From assembly GCF_024979255.1 (NCBI RefSeq), contig NZ_JANLCN010000001.1, positions 434,001-498,000 on the forward strand: a stretch of DNA of 64,000 nucleotides, given 5' to 3'. The notes beneath the pieces were generated by a model. It worked only from the letters and a program-made list of their open reading frames with translations, ran no database searches and was not told where the DNA came from. Positions 21,780 through 27,481 of this stretch are shown here, piece after piece. Each line of letters starts with the position of its first letter. Within the stretch, counting starts at the first letter, position 1. The position numbers and the translations under genes were made by a program. This DNA comes from Herbiconiux moechotypicola. GTDB taxonomy: Bacteria > Actinomycetota > Actinomycetes > Actinomycetales > Microbacteriaceae.

Positions 21780-21950
21780 TTGATGTTCAAGACCCGTTCC
21801 TGTGCGTGGTTCTGCGGTCGCTTCGGCGGCTTCGGCAGATCAGCACTTGACATGGGTCTTAGTACTGTCCGAAAACATCCCCGTGGGCGGATTTCTTGCC
21901 CGGGACGACCGCGATCGTCTCGCCCTCTGCGGGGTATGAAAGGTGAACTC

Positions 21951-23270
21951 ATGGCCACCACCAAGACCGCAGACACCCTCGATCAGGCGACGGCGCCCGA
22001 CGAGGCCACGGCGGCCCCGGCCAAGCGCCCCGCCGCCAAGCGCGCGGGCACCGCTGCCGCCAAGGCCGCTCCCAAGAAGGCCGCCCCGAAGAAGGCGAAG
22101 GCTGCTGCCGACGTCGAGGGCGACGAGGAAGAGCTCGACGGCGACGACGTGGAGCTCGACGACGACAGCACCGACGACGCCGGCGACGACGACTCGGGTG
22201 ACACCGAGGCCGCCGCCGACGACGCGTCGGGTGCCGACGGCGACGACGAGTCGTCGAAGACCCCCGCGGCCGCCGAGGAGGCACTGCCCTCAGGCGCGCT
22301 CGTGCTCTCCCTCGTCGACGACGAGGACGAGGTGCCGGTCTACTCCACCGCGATCACCGGCGCGACCGCCGACCCGGTGAAGGACTACCTCAAGCAGATC
22401 GGCAAGGTCGCGCTCCTCAACGCGGCCGAGGAGGTCGAGCTCGCGATGCGCATCGAGGCGGGCCTCTTCGCCGAGGACAAGCTCGCCAACTCCGACAACC
22501 TCACCCCGCAGCTCAAGCGCGAGCTGCAGTGGGTGGCGAAGGACGGCCAGCGGGCCAAGAGCCACCTCCTGGGCGCCAACCTGCGACTCGTCGTGTCGCT
22601 CGCGAAGCGGTACACCGGTCGCGGCATGCAGTTCCTCGACCTCATCCAGGAGGGGAACCTCGGTCTCATCCGTGCGGTCGAGAAGTTCGACTACACCAAG
22701 GGCTTCAAGTTCTCCACCTACGCCACGTGGTGGATCCGTCAGGCCATCACCCGCGCGATGGCCGACCAGGCCCGCACCATCCGCATCCCCGTGCACATGG
22801 TGGAGGTCATCAACAAGCTCGCTCGTGTGCAGCGTCAGATGCTGCAAGACCTCGGCCGTGAGCCCACGCCCGAGGAGCTGAGCCGCGAGCTCGACATGAC
22901 CCCCGAGAAGGTCATCGAGGTGCAGAAGTACGGCCGTGAGCCGATCTCGCTGCACACTCCGCTCGGTGAAGACGGCGACAGCGAGTTCGGCGATCTGATC
23001 GAAGACACCGAGGCGGTCGTTCCGGCCGACGCGGTGGGCTTCACCATGCTGCAGAAGCAGCTGGAGTCGCTCCTCGACTCGCTCTCCGAGCGCGAGGCCG
23101 GCGTCATCCGGATGCGCTTCGGGCTCGGTGACGGCATGCCCAAGACGCTCGACCAGATCGGCGACACCTTCGGGGTCACCCGAGAGCGCATCCGCCAGAT
23201 CGAGTCCAAGACGATGGCGAAGCTGCGCCACCCGTCGCGGTCGCAGTCGCTGCGCGACTACCTCGAGTAG
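21951..23270 (+). CDS. sigA: Principal RNA polymerase sigma factor (sigma-70 group 1)
   Basis: The housekeeping sigma factor directing promoter recognition; 439 residues from ATG 21951. The N-terminus is a Lys/Ala-rich stretch followed by a strongly acidic run ([20 protein letters not shown]), typical of actinobacterial SigA/HrdB. Region 2 shows [17 protein letters not shown] and [20 protein letters not shown] with the melting segment [20 protein letters not shown]. Region 4 ends in [20 protein letters not shown] (the -35-binding helix). The ribosome site is AAAGGTG; a possible earlier ATG at 21936 would add five residues. The 171-base upstream leader is otherwise featureless to me. Confidence 0.97.
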
Positions 23271-23274
23271 GTCG

Positions 23275-24603
23275 ATGAGCATCCGCACCACGGCCGCCGT
23301 TCTCGTCGGACGAGCGGTCAGGGTCGCCGCGCGTCTGCGCGGGGGCGGATCGGCGATCCCCGGGGCCGTGGCGCTCCGCATCGACCCGGGCTTCCTCGAG
23401 CGCACCATCGCGGCCATCCCCGATGGGGTGGTGGCGGTCTCCGGCTCCAACGGCAAGTCGACGACCACCAACATGCTCGCGGCCATCGTGCGCGCGCACG
23501 GTCTCGCGGTGTTCACCAATCCCTCCGGGGGCAACCTGCCTCAGGGCATCGCCTCGGCGCTGCTCTCCGAGGTGTCGACCTCCGGCCGGTTGAAGGCCGA
23601 CATCGCGGTGCTCGAGATCGACGAGGGGTACGGCACACGGCTTGCCGAGCTCCTCAAGCCGAAGACGGTGCTGCTGCTCAACATCCAGATCGACCAGCTC
23701 AACCGCTACCATGAGCCCGATCGGGTCGCCGCGATGCTCGGTCGCGTGGCCGCCGCGTCGACCGACGGTCTGGTGCTCAACCGCGAAGACAACTTCCTGG
23801 TCGACCTGGATGCGCAGATCCCCGCGCGGCCAGGGCGTGCGGTGTCGTTCTTCGGCGGGCTGCCCGAGCTCGTGCTGCCGGCCGGTCACGGTGTGGCGTC
23901 GGCAGATCGTTTCGGCGAGGCCGCGGCCTCGCCCGGTTCGCGGGAGGCGGCCGTTCAGGTCGTCGCCCTCGACGGGGCGCGCGCGACGCTGGCGATCGCC
24001 CCGGTCGATGATCATCGTGACGGTGGAGCGAACCGCGAACCCGTCGAGGTCGTCGTCAAGCTGCCCTCGCGCGGCCTCCACTACGCGCTCGATGCGGCGG
24101 GCGCCGCGGCCGCGGCGCGCTCCGTGCTCGGCGAGCGCTTCCGCCCCGAACTGGTCGCTTCGGCGCTCGACGCCCTCGCCACGGTGTACGGGCGTGGCGA
24201 GCTGCTCGAGGTCGAGGGCGAGCGCATCGAGATCATCATGATGAAGAACCCGGCGAGTCTGCAGCTCAACCTCGACTCACTGGAGTCGGCGCCCGAGCAG
24301 GTCTTCCTCGCGGTCGACGAGGGTACCCCCGACCCTTCCTGGATCTACGACATCGACTTCTCGGCACTCGATCACGTCGACGGCATCACCGGCTCGAAGG
24401 CCTGGCAGTTCGCCGTGCGCTTCGGGTACCTCGGCATCCCGGTCGGTTCGGTCGACCTCGACGTGCGCGCCGCCCTCAAAGCGTTCCTCGCTCTCCCGAA
24501 GCCGGCCAGCGGACACAAGGTGATGATCCTGAACTACGAGCAGATGATGGACATCCGCAAGATCCTGGGCTTCAAGGAGCTCGAGGGCGGGGGAGCGTCA
24601 TGA
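23275..24603 (+). CDS. murT: MurT-like Mur ligase (lipid II amidotransferase ligase subunit), zinc ribbon absent
   Basis: A 442-residue Mur-ligase-fold protein that, with GatD, normally amidates the D-Glu alpha-carboxyl of lipid II. The ATP loop is VSGSNGKSTTTNMLAAIV (about residue 56), the second conserved block is IAVLEIDEGYG, and the C-terminal DUF1727 domain contains MMKNPASLQLNLDSL and DPSWIYDIDFSAL, retaining the Asp of the family motif WxxDxDF. Known MurT proteins carry a four-Cys zinc ribbon inserted in the middle domain. Here residues about 190-235 contain no cysteine, and the whole protein has none. It starts 4 bases after sigA and overlaps gatD by four bases (ATGA). The missing ribbon and the altered partner suggest changed chemistry; see findings. 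Confidence 0.88.
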   Translation: MSIRTTAAVLVGRAVRVAARLRGGGSAIPGAVALRIDPGFLERTIAAIPDGVVAVSGSNGKSTTTNMLAAIVRAHGLAVFTNPSGGNLPQGIASALLSEVSTSGRLKADIAVLEIDEGYGTRLAELLKPKTVLLLNIQIDQLNRYHEPDRVAAMLGRVAAASTDGLVLNREDNFLVDLDAQIPARPGRAVSFFGGLPELVLPAGHGVASADRFGEAAASPGSREAAVQVVALDGARATLAIAPVDDHRDGGANREPVEVVVKLPSRGLHYALDAAGAAAAARSVLGERFRPELVASALDALATVYGRGELLEVEGERIEIIMMKNPASLQLNLDSLESAPEQVFLAVDEGTPDPSWIYDIDFSALDHVDGITGSKAWQFAVRFGYLGIPVGSVDLDVRAALKAFLALPKPASGHKVMILNYEQMMDIRKILGFKELEGGGAS

Positions 24604-25343
24604 GCGCGGCACTGCGCATCCTGCACCTGTTCCCGACGCTGCTCGGGCTTAACGGTGAGGGCGGCAACGTCGACATCCTGCGACGTCGCGCCGAGGCCAG
24701 AGGCCTGGCAGTGGAGGTCGTGGTGCACAACGGCGGCGCGGTCGCGCCCGGCTTCGACGACGCGGATCTCGTGTTCATCGGCAGTGGCCCCGTGTCGGCA
24801 GAGATCATCGCGCAGCCGCTCGTGCTCGAGGTGGCGGAGAGGCTGCGTGCCCTGGCGGCCGATGGCCGACCGTTCCTCGCCATCGGAGCCGGGTTCCAGC
24901 TGCTCGGCACGACCGTCACGCTCGAATCGGGTGAGGTGCTCGGGGGTGCCGCGGTCTTCCCGGTCACCACGCGCCACGGTGGCACGAGGGTGGTGGGCGA
25001 CTTCGTGCTCGACTCACCGCGGGTGGGCCCGATCGTGGGGTTCGAGAACCGGGGCTCGTTCGTGGAGGTCGGCCCGCACGGCACGCTCGGCCGCGTGGTC
25101 TACGGCCGCGGCAACACGGAGACCCCGGGGTACGAGGGCTTCTGGGAGGACAACCTCCTCGGCACCCACATGCACGGCCCGATCCTGGCCAACAACCCGG
25201 TGCTCGCCGACTCGCTGCTCGACCTCGCCCGCCTGCGCCGCGGCCTGGAGTACACGATCGCCGACCCCGACGAGCTCCGCGCCGTCGACGAGCGCGCCCG
25301 CCAGGCCCGCGCGACGATCGCCGCGAATCCGCTCTCGGAGTAG
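24600..25343 (+). CDS. gatD: GatD-like type 1 glutamine amidotransferase-fold partner of MurT, catalytic Cys replaced by Gly
   Basis: A 247-residue class I amidotransferase-like (CobB/CobQ type) protein. Recognisable blocks are LLGLNGEGGNVDILRRRAEA, IVGFENRGSFVEVG and EDNLLGTHMHGPILANNPVL, the last carrying the catalytic His (residue 192). The nucleophile elbow reads LAIGAGFQLLG where GatD proteins have xxCGGYQLLG. The Cys is therefore Gly96 (codon GGA at 24885-24887), in register with Cys94 of the Staphylococcus aureus protein. Without it, glutamine hydrolysis should not occur. It is translationally coupled to murT (ATGA overlap) and converges on parE. Confidence 0.86.
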   Translation: MSAALRILHLFPTLLGLNGEGGNVDILRRRAEARGLAVEVVVHNGGAVAPGFDDADLVFIGSGPVSAEIIAQPLVLEVAERLRALAADGRPFLAIGAGFQLLGTTVTLESGEVLGGAAVFPVTTRHGGTRVVGDFVLDSPRVGPIVGFENRGSFVEVGPHGTLGRVVYGRGNTETPGYEGFWEDNLLGTHMHGPILANNPVLADSLLDLARLRRGLEYTIADPDELRAVDERARQARATIAANPLSE

Positions 25344-25393: not shown

Positions 25394-27481
25394 TCAGACG
25401 TCGATGCGGTCGCGCGACATGCCGTCGGAGCCGGCGATGATGAACTCCTTGCGAGGAGCGACGTCGTCGCCCATCAGCAGGTCGAACATCGACTCCGCCT
25501 TGGCGGCGTCGGCCACCCCGACGCGCCGGAGCGTGCGATAGCGCTTGTCCATCGTGGTGGACGCGAGCTGATCGGCATCCATCTCGCCGAGACCCTTGTA
25601 GCGCTGGATCGGGTCTTGGTAGCGCCGGTTCGACTTCTTGAGCGAGGCGAGCACGCCCTGCAGCTCGGCCTCCGAGTAGGTGTAGATGGTCTCGTTCGGC
25701 TTCGAGCCCGGATTCATCACCACGACGCGGTGCAGCGGCGGAACGGCGGCGTAGACCCGGCCGTCCTCGATGAGCGGCCGCATGTAGCGGAAGAAGAGGG
25801 TGAGCAAGAGGGTGCGGATGTGGGCGCCGTCGACATCGGCGTCGCTCATCAGGATGATCTTGCCGTAGCGCGCGGCCGACAGGTCGAAGGAACGGCCCGA
25901 CCCGGCACCGATGACCTGGATGATGGAGGCGCACTCCGCGTTCGAGAGCATGTCGGCGATCGACGCCTTCTGCACGTTGAGGATCTTGCCGCGGATGGGG
26001 AGCAGGGCCTGGAACTCGCTGGAGCGGGCCAGCTTGGCCGTGCCGAGCGCCGAGTCGCCCTCCACGATGAACAGCTCGCTGTTGGCGACGTCGTTGCTGC
26101 GGCAGTCGACGAGCTTCGCCGGCAGAGACGACGATTCGAGCGCGTTCTTGCGCCGCTGGGTCTCCTTGTGGGCGCGGGCACTGATGCGCGACTTCATCTC
26201 GGCCACGACCTTGTCGAGCACGAGAGCGGCCTGCGACTTGTCGTCGCGCTTGGGGGAGGAGAAGCGCTCGGAGAGTCCCTTGGTGAGCACCGACGACACG
26301 ATCGCCCGCACCGCGGGAGTGCCGAGAACCTCTTTCGTCTGCCCTTCGAACTGCGGCTCGGGGAGCCGCACTGTGAGCACCGCCGTGAGACCGGCGAGCA
26401 CGTCGTCTTTGTCGAGCTTGTCGTTGCCCGGCTTCAGGCGTCTCGCGTTGGCCTCCACGGCCTGCCGGAGGAACTTGAGCAGCCCCGCCTCGAAGCCCGC
26501 CTGGTGCGTGCCACCCTTGGGGGTGGAGATGATGTTGACGAAGCTGCGGAACACGGTGTCGTAGCCCACGCCCCAGCGCAGTGCCAGATCGACGGTGCAC
26601 TCCCGGGTGAGCTCTGTCGGCACCATCGCACCCGAGTCGCTCAGCACGGGCACGGTCTCCTTGAACGTTCCGGAGCCGGTGATGCGCCAGATGTCGGTGA
26701 CCGGAGAGTCGGAGGCGAGGTGCTCGACGAACTCCGAGATGCCGCCCTCGAAGCGGAACGACTGGGCCTGCGACTCCTCGCCGCGCTCGTCGTCGATCGT
26801 GATGCGCAGACCCGGCACCAGGAAGGCCGTCTGCCGGGCGCGCACGGTGAGATCGTCGGCCTGGAACTCCGCGCCCTTGGTGAAGATCTGCCGGTCCGCC
26901 CAATAGCGCACGCGCGTGCCGGTGGCGTTCTTGGCGGCCTTGCCGACCACACGCAGCTCGCTGCCCTTCTCGAACGGCGTGAACGGCGCATCCGGACTGG
27001 GAGCCGCACCCCGGTCGTCGAACACACCGGGCTCGCCTCGATGGAACGACATCGCCCAGGTCTTGCCGTCGCGGTCGACCTCCACGTCGAGGCGCTCGGA
27101 GAGGGCGTTCACCACCGAGGCGCCGACGCCGTGCAGACCTCCCGACGCCGCATAGGACCCCGAACCGAACTTGCCGCCCGCGTGCAGCTTGGTGAACACG
27201 ACCTCGACGCCGGTCAGACCCGTCTTGGGCTCGATGTCGACCGGGATGCCGCGGGCACGGTCGCGCACCTCGACGCTGCCGTCGGGGTGGAGCACCACCG
27301 CGATGTCGTCACCGAAGCCCGCGAGCGCCTCGTCGACGGAGTTGTCGATGATCTCCCACAGGCAGTGCATGAGCCCACGCGAATCGGTGGAGCCGATGTA
27401 CATGCCCGGGCGCTTGCGCACCGCCTCGAGGCCCTCGAGCACGGAGAGATGGCGGGCGGAGTAGTCGGAGGGCGTGGGCAC
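25394..27481 (-). CDS. parE: DNA topoisomerase type IIA, subunit B (ParE/GyrB-like)
   Basis: The ATPase subunit of a second type II topoisomerase; 695 residues. The N-terminal GHKL ATPase has EAVRKRPGMYIGSTDSRG and WEIIDNSVDEALAG, with the later GGLHGVGASVVNALS. The TOPRIM domain has ELFIVEGDSALGTAKLARS, KILNVQKA and LMSDADVDGAHIRTLLL, with the Glu and Asp-x-Asp metal ligands. It lacks the extra insertion of proteobacterial GyrB. GTG 27481 has TACCCT 6 bases upstream. The parC partner is about 400 bases further right on the same strand, split from parE by the oppositely oriented small zinc-ribbon gene. GyrB versus ParE naming rests on context. Confidence 0.92.
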   Translation of the reverse strand: MPTPSDYSARHLSVLEGLEAVRKRPGMYIGSTDSRGLMHCLWEIIDNSVDEALAGFGDDIAVVLHPDGSVEVRDRARGIPVDIEPKTGLTGVEVVFTKLHAGGKFGSGSYAASGGLHGVGASVVNALSERLDVEVDRDGKTWAMSFHRGEPGVFDDRGAAPSPDAPFTPFEKGSELRVVGKAAKNATGTRVRYWADRQIFTKGAEFQADDLTVRARQTAFLVPGLRITIDDERGEESQAQSFRFEGGISEFVEHLASDSPVTDIWRITGSGTFKETVPVLSDSGAMVPTELTRECTVDLALRWGVGYDTVFRSFVNIISTPKGGTHQAGFEAGLLKFLRQAVEANARRLKPGNDKLDKDDVLAGLTAVLTVRLPEPQFEGQTKEVLGTPAVRAIVSSVLTKGLSERFSSPKRDDKSQAALVLDKVVAEMKSRISARAHKETQRRKNALESSSLPAKLVDCRSNDVANSELFIVEGDSALGTAKLARSSEFQALLPIRGKILNVQKASIADMLSNAECASIIQVIGAGSGRSFDLSAARYGKIILMSDADVDGAHIRTLLLTLFFRYMRPLIEDGRVYAAVPPLHRVVVMNPGSKPNETIYTYSEAELQGVLASLKKSNRRYQDPIQRYKGLGEMDADQLASTTMDKRYRTLRRVGVADAAKAESMFDLLMGDDVAPRKEFIIAGSDGMSRDRIDV

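Follow-up and report, generated by a model that had tools for sequence, protein, structure and literature searches.

The MurT-GatD pair normally places ammonia onto the α-carboxyl of D-Glu in lipid II. Group B peptidoglycan walls were recognized half a century ago, with independent group B lineages in the Firmicutes (Erysipelothrix and Acetobacterium), and the bridges of Microbacterium contain Gly and a diamino acid. In the open-licence literature, no paper naming the enzymes that build the group B bridge was found, nor one that brings together MurT, GatD, and the Microbacteriaceae.

Statements carrying a PMC number are drawn from excerpts of the respective papers. The lipid II isoglutaminyl synthase MurT-GatD is structurally represented by S. 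aureus (PDB 6GS2, 6H5E, and 7Q8E) and S. pneumoniae (PDB 6FQB). In a true GatD, an arginine captures glutamine (PMC6085368), and the S. aureus substitutions C94G and C94S abolish amidation in vitro (PMC6113224); the C94G protein was also produced in PMC3266927. In MurT, the DNAAD motif, which adjoins the DGRD segment, is a proposed muropeptide contact (PMC6113224).

The window, i.e., the whole 64,000-nucleotide stretch of Herbiconiux moechotypicola DNA that was analyzed, harbors a pair with the same gene content and domain plan. Mur_ligase_M and MurT_C in MurT and GATase_3 in GatD all score above the Pfam cut-off, and the genes are adjacent (Table 1), with a 4-bp overlap. The NCBIfam isoglutaminyl-synthase models give 110 of 800 bits for MurT and 132 of 450 bits for GatD, a shortfall that may reflect the models themselves. 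The murT gene starts 4 bp past the stop codon of a gene that we take to be sigA (principal sigma factor), and a convergent gene, presumably parE, closes the interval; both names are presumed from the protein sequences. The C-terminal 249 residues of SigA are 94–100% identical across 29 Microbacteriaceae genomes.

Table 1. Features of the sigA-parE interval, in window coordinates
Feature	Position	Strand	Length	Basis
sigA, left border of the slot	21780..23270	+		ORF; name presumed from the protein sequence
murT-like Mur ligase	23275..24603	+	442 aa	ORF translation, Pfam domains
gatD-like pseudo-glutaminase (Cys to Gly)	24600..25343	+	247 aa	ORF, Pfam, alignment
GatD Gly96 codon GGA, catalytic Cys position	24885..24887	+		alignment with S. 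aureus GatD
parE (DNA gyrase/topoisomerase IV B subunit), right border, convergent	25394..27481	-		ORF; homologues located in relatives; name presumed from the protein sequence

The main traits that the window pair shares with the isoglutaminyl synthase are (i) the ATP loop, (ii) MurT_C, (iii) GATase_3, (iv) the Asp349 context, (v) the glutamine-capturing arginine, and (vi) the GatD histidine. Unlike the synthase, it has no catalytic cysteine, no ribbon, and neither the DGRD/DNAAD nor the RDQ segment; the family type also differs by a new SxQxNxD motif and by adjoining sigA. With the MurC-F ligases the pair shares the Mur ligase middle domain and, as proposed here, an amino acid as acceptor, but the window MurT carries MurT_C and a GatD partner, and its middle domain starts at residue 55, too near the N terminus for a UDP-binding domain to fit in front of it.

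An earlier note on this DNA had described glycine at the catalytic cysteine of GatD with the histidine retained, and alignment with the S. aureus protein confirms it: Gly96 aligns with the catalytic Cys94, the histidine of HMHGPI aligns with His189, and the Arg128 equivalent is also kept. Its description of MurT holds equally, since the translation contains GSNGKSTTT and WIYDIDF and not a single cysteine, hence no zinc ribbon. The same note had raised the possibility of a second intact murT-gatD pair in this genome, and searches with the MurT_C and MurT profiles found none. There is a single MurT_C match, and the MurT profile yields four matches at E ≤1e-8, the sigA-linked copy being the only one among the strong matches listed.

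GatD homologues were matched in 117 of 149 Microbacteriaceae genomes and in 79 of 198 genomes of the order set, 70 of these outside the family. The alignment comprises 159 MurT-GatD loci from 119 family genomes and 35 genomes of seven other families; one family genome (G024), 36 of the 79 order-match genomes (35 of them from the 70 outside the family), and weak second matches were left out of it, and six MurT-bearing family genomes (G005, G011, G024, G035, G087, and G143) lie outside the GatD survey. The pair adjoins sigA at 99 loci, every one in Microbacteriaceae, and none of these copies has cysteine at the catalytic site, which is occupied by Gly (67), Ala (14), His (8), Ser (4), Asn (4), or Thr (2). 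All 35 copies outside the family have both the cysteine and the histidine, so the Cys-to-Gly change of the window GatD is not due to chance (0/99 versus 35/35). The 25 family copies with no sigA match alongside carry Cys in 17 cases, Gly in five, and Ala in three; at one locus (L064) the stretch of sequence is cut short, such that sigA adjacency cannot be judged. The histidine is missing from 36 of the 99 sigA-linked copies, and the glutamine-capturing arginine is kept in 97. Among the aligned loci, 14 of the 119 family genomes have only Cys-containing pairs. Regarding close relatives, the expectation of the earlier note that the cysteine would be absent applies to the sigA-linked copies; it does not extend to second copies, which retain Cys in Leifsonia aquatica (L263), G050, G113, and G060.

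Two other arrangements of the pair were encountered. A divergent second lineage of the pair, represented by nine loci (L135–L139, L141, L144, L149, and L213), likewise lies directly behind sigA; it has ribbon cysteines and His at the Cys site (Gln in L213). In Naasia lichenicola (L183, 11806-20697), MurT and the altered GatD are separated by ~7 kb with other open frames in between.

MurT is remodelled in step with the loss of the GatD cysteine. The DGRD segment is present in 48 of 52 MurT copies from Cys-containing pairs versus 2 of 107 from Cys-less pairs, the RDQ interface loop in 52/52 versus 3/107, and a new motif, SxQxNxD after the KNP loop, in 0/52 versus 88/107. The window MurT has DEGTPDPSW and IDQ in place of the DNAAD/DGRD and RDQ segments, with DPSW aligned to S. 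aureus D349 (position counted in the alignment). The changed segments are associated with binding of the muropeptide and with the contact to GatD. The ribbon behaves differently. Two CxxC motifs occur in seven of the 99 copies linked to sigA, in five of the 25 remaining family copies, and in five of the 35 from other families; because 30 of the 35 outside copies, all with Cys, also lack it, ribbon loss is ordinary and loses the special meaning that the earlier note had given it.

A quick MurT tree was built from 85 rows: a random draw of 30 from the 91 main-type copies at sigA, 17 of the 35 copies from other families, and all other classes. The 37 ribbon-free, Cys-less copies form one clade (SH-aLRT 100). 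Two lineages fall apart from this clade, “HNA” (His at the Cys site, ribbon, sigA-linked) and g49; both sit on long branches, and their mutual join is unsure. Among four Herbiconiux genomes, dN/dS is 0.18–0.30 for GatD and 0.12–0.21 for MurT; GatD is thus under purifying selection.

The sigA-linked position is also occupied by other enzymes. By profile search, a strong MurT match (E 3.3e-43 or better, the weakest being the partial G005) occurs in 122 of the 149 family genomes, and the other 27 have no MurT above E 1e-19. The sigA locus was read in 20 genomes without a full MurT, namely 19 of these 27 and G005. Behind sigA in 15 of the 20 lies a CofE-like ligase (PF01996), accompanied by an ATP-grasp protein (PF14397, ATPgrasp_ST) in 13 cases, an alanine-racemase homologue in eight, MurJ in one, and an EctB-type diaminobutyrate (DAB) transaminase in one; a second slot MurJ was found at the named locus L184. 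Four loci (L173, L175, L177, and L179) have none of the searched genes behind sigA except parE (and gyrA/parC), and in G040 the contig ends straight after sigA. CofE and ATPgrasp_ST belong to other protein families than MurT-GatD, the former to that of the F420-0:glutamate ligase, and would do the same overall job in the same sigA-parE slot of MurT-less relatives. Neither has a profile match in the window genome.

MurT and the close CofE type are mutually exclusive at this position. CofE matches at E <1e-100 occur in 21 of the 27 MurT-less genomes and in none of the 122 with MurT (Fisher 1.5e-20, relatedness ignored). Because such values disregard relatedness, the better argument comes from within-genus swaps: in six genera (g7, g9, g53, g54, g70, and g77), different species have either MurT or CofE beside sigA. 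More divergent CofE homologues do accompany MurT in G049, G112, and G134 (E 1e-38 to 1e-46), with a weak divergent match (5e-6) in the MurT-bearing G002. The 32 named-record family genomes are divided into 19 with MurT, including two Leucobacter with Cys-containing pairs, and 13 with CofE (11 Microbacterium, Microcella alkaliphila, and one Salinibacterium), without overlap; in 33 genomes including that of the window, the ATP-grasp gene is found in exactly the 13 CofE genomes. Approximately 35 Microbacteriaceae-like loci are among the best 80 sigA matches listed for named genomes. At the 45 sigA loci outside the family none of the slot genes is found (5 of the 45 have no parE in the stretch), and of two further family loci L215 has MurT-GatD and L246 has none.

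Some clusters combine or displace these components. Two loci, L145 (G112, contig C1, 3452611-3455331) and L142 (G049), hold a divergent CofE-like gene, a ribbon-containing MurT, and GatD in one same-strand run, i.e., both ligase types in one cluster; their GatD has Cys changed to Gly and His to Leu, and no sigA match lies beside MurT. In a metagenome-assembled relative (L202, 10764-15023), a DAB transaminase and an alanine-racemase homologue lie on the opposite strand next after MurT and the Cys-less GatD. Microbacterium schleiferi (G359, the L200 genome) has CofE and ATP-grasp without a racemase homologue in the sigA slot and, on contig 32 (159309-162039) away from sigA, a second ATP-grasp gene beside an alanine-racemase homologue. 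A record filed as Stenotrophomonas maltophilia P13 (L199, JACEFY010000023.1) contains a Microbacterium-like sigA-CofE-ATP-grasp-parE locus, which is probably contamination or a wrong name.

The wall types used for comparison are genus-level or from other strains. The group B host assumed by the earlier note finds support at genus level: the Herbiconiux wall is B2γ with D- and L-DAB, possibly with glycine, alanine, and 3-hydroxyglutamate (PMC10011130), and the excerpt of PMC10978784 assigns group B walls to the Microbacteriaceae as a whole. On the MurT side, Cryobacterium is B2γ with DAB and Glaciihabitans contains DAB (both PMC7033078), Agromyces aureus has D-Glu-L-Dab (PMC5217419), and Rhodoluna lacicola has D-Ala-D-Dab (PMC4156110). 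On the CofE side, Salinibacterium has Lys/Orn (PMC7033078), and Microbacterium has D-Orn, L-Lys, or DAB (PMC10757982); its possible DAB counts against the reading favored below. Clavibacter uses a D-diamino acid as the bridge, with L-DAB in the stem (PMC9603630).

Nor does loss of the cysteine equal a group B wall, and the exact correlation suggested by the earlier note fails, given that 13 of the 32 named-record genomes have no MurT and two Leucobacter genomes have only Cys-containing pairs. Each of the latter has a single MurT, in a pair away from sigA, and a search for the bridge genes next to its sigA found none; other members of Leucobacter have a type B cross-link with DAB (PMC4804768). 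The system is thus not needed for group B as such, because Leucobacter has neither gene set and 6 of the 149 family genomes lack both MurT and CofE. Other enzymes must be at work in some group B members, because the Leucobacter pairs and those of the 14 genomes noted above all retain the cysteine.

Genes for DAB supply were also considered as markers. The EctB-type DAB transaminase cannot serve as a marker common to MurT-type genomes, since it is present in 2 of 33 genomes and was not found in that of the window. Two alr-like genes lie in tandem in the window genome (contig 47, 69351-71572) and in H. gentiana, and one of the two is a candidate diaminobutyrate racemase. The two Rathayibacter, the Agromyces, and the Rhodoluna genomes have one each (split matches merged by eye). 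The tandem genes of Herbiconiux (with both D- and L-DAB) and the single gene of Agromyces (L-Dab of A. aureus) match the wall data, whereas the single gene of Rhodoluna is at odds with the D-Dab of R. lacicola; the cases are too few to weigh gene number as a marker of D-diamino acids.

The favored reading, with a probability of roughly 70%, is that MurT-GatD has here been retargeted to the making of the group B cross-bridge, with 2,4-diaminobutyrate as the most likely acceptor in Herbiconiux. By the residues compared, the pair is not a lipid II isoglutaminyl synthase but most likely a bridge ligase that acts like a Mur ligase with an amino acid acceptor. Because the ammonia-releasing residue is lost and the slot is swappable with unrelated amino-acid-joining enzymes, the pair probably attaches the cross-linking amino acid. 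We infer the following reaction, with its acceptor and the part played by GatD. MurT, in which the ATP loop and the acidic pair are kept, would activate the α-carboxyl of D-Glu in lipid II and couple it to an amino acid through the latter's amine, DAB being the likeliest choice in Herbiconiux. This would yield the D-Glu-DAB bridge found in B2γ walls, which transpeptidases would then link to D-Ala. GatD would have given up ammonia production but remained a partner of MurT; it may hold the acceptor via the arginine that captures glutamine in the true enzyme. The bridge-ligase interpretation of the earlier note thereby keeps its footing in the group B genus, the remodelled MurT with its ATP loop, and a slot common to amino-acid ligases, having lost the arguments from the ribbon and from exact tracking.

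The sigA-parE gap is best read as a group B bridge locus. A more specific proposal, which is tentative, is that it serves as a swap slot for two unrelated ligase systems (MurT with a dead glutaminase versus CofE-like ligase with ATP-grasp), that the type of bridge depends on which system a genome has (a single diamino acid or two residues), and that GatD now binds the diamino acid acceptor in its old glutamine pocket, whose arginine is retained.

The segments that have changed, RDQ and DGRD, are associated with GatD contact and with the muropeptide, respectively, and the slot partners come from amino-acid ligase and racemase families; it is therefore unlikely that the pair still amidates D-Glu with free or otherwise-sourced ammonia and that GatD is a scaffold only, even though the Asp349 equivalent of MurT is kept and S. 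aureus MurT-GatD uses ammonia at pH 8.5 with GatD still required (PMC6085368). Amidated D-Glu observed in Clavibacter muropeptides (PMC9603630) indicates some amidation within the family, but amidation can have its own enzyme in Leifsonia aquatica, G050, G113, and G060, because Cys-containing pairs persist elsewhere in these genomes.

The acceptor is not readable from sequence, and the pair might instead add a different amino acid, such as glycine, at the D-Glu carboxyl, with the diamino acid attached by another enzyme, or act on another carboxyl. Two Cys-less MurT copies in G111, G145, and the genome of L213 and L264 look as if two ligations took place there. This reading has a low likelihood, since the B2γ bridges of related genera are reported as a single DAB directly on D-Glu (A. 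aureus, PMC5217419; Clavibacter, PMC9603630) and the profile searches of the window genome gave a single strong MurT but no CofE or ATP-grasp match.

Modification of a non-bridge target, such as stem position 3 or a secondary polymer, which the swaps would then reflect, is very unlikely. The family names, ATPgrasp_ST for sugar-transfer loci and CofE for action on a cofactor, would suit it, but the known homologue of MurT acts on precisely the D-Glu carboxyl, the slot also contains a racemase homologue, a DAB transaminase, and MurJ, and in Clavibacter it is the bridge that carries the D-diamino acid (PMC9603630). Decay to a functionless amidation pair, which the lost cysteine and the frequently missing histidine might suggest, can be dismissed given the GatD dN/dS, the family-wide sigA-linked pairs, and the newly conserved MurT motif.

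The name “isoglutaminyl synthase” is probably wrong for such pairs. The retargeted MurT-GatD and the CofE-like ligase with ATP-grasp provide two concrete candidate bridge systems, together with natural swaps within six genera and a locus that can be checked in every genome of the Microbacteriaceae. If the favored reading is true, this family harbors a glutamine amidotransferase that lost its glutaminase and became an amino-acid ligase.
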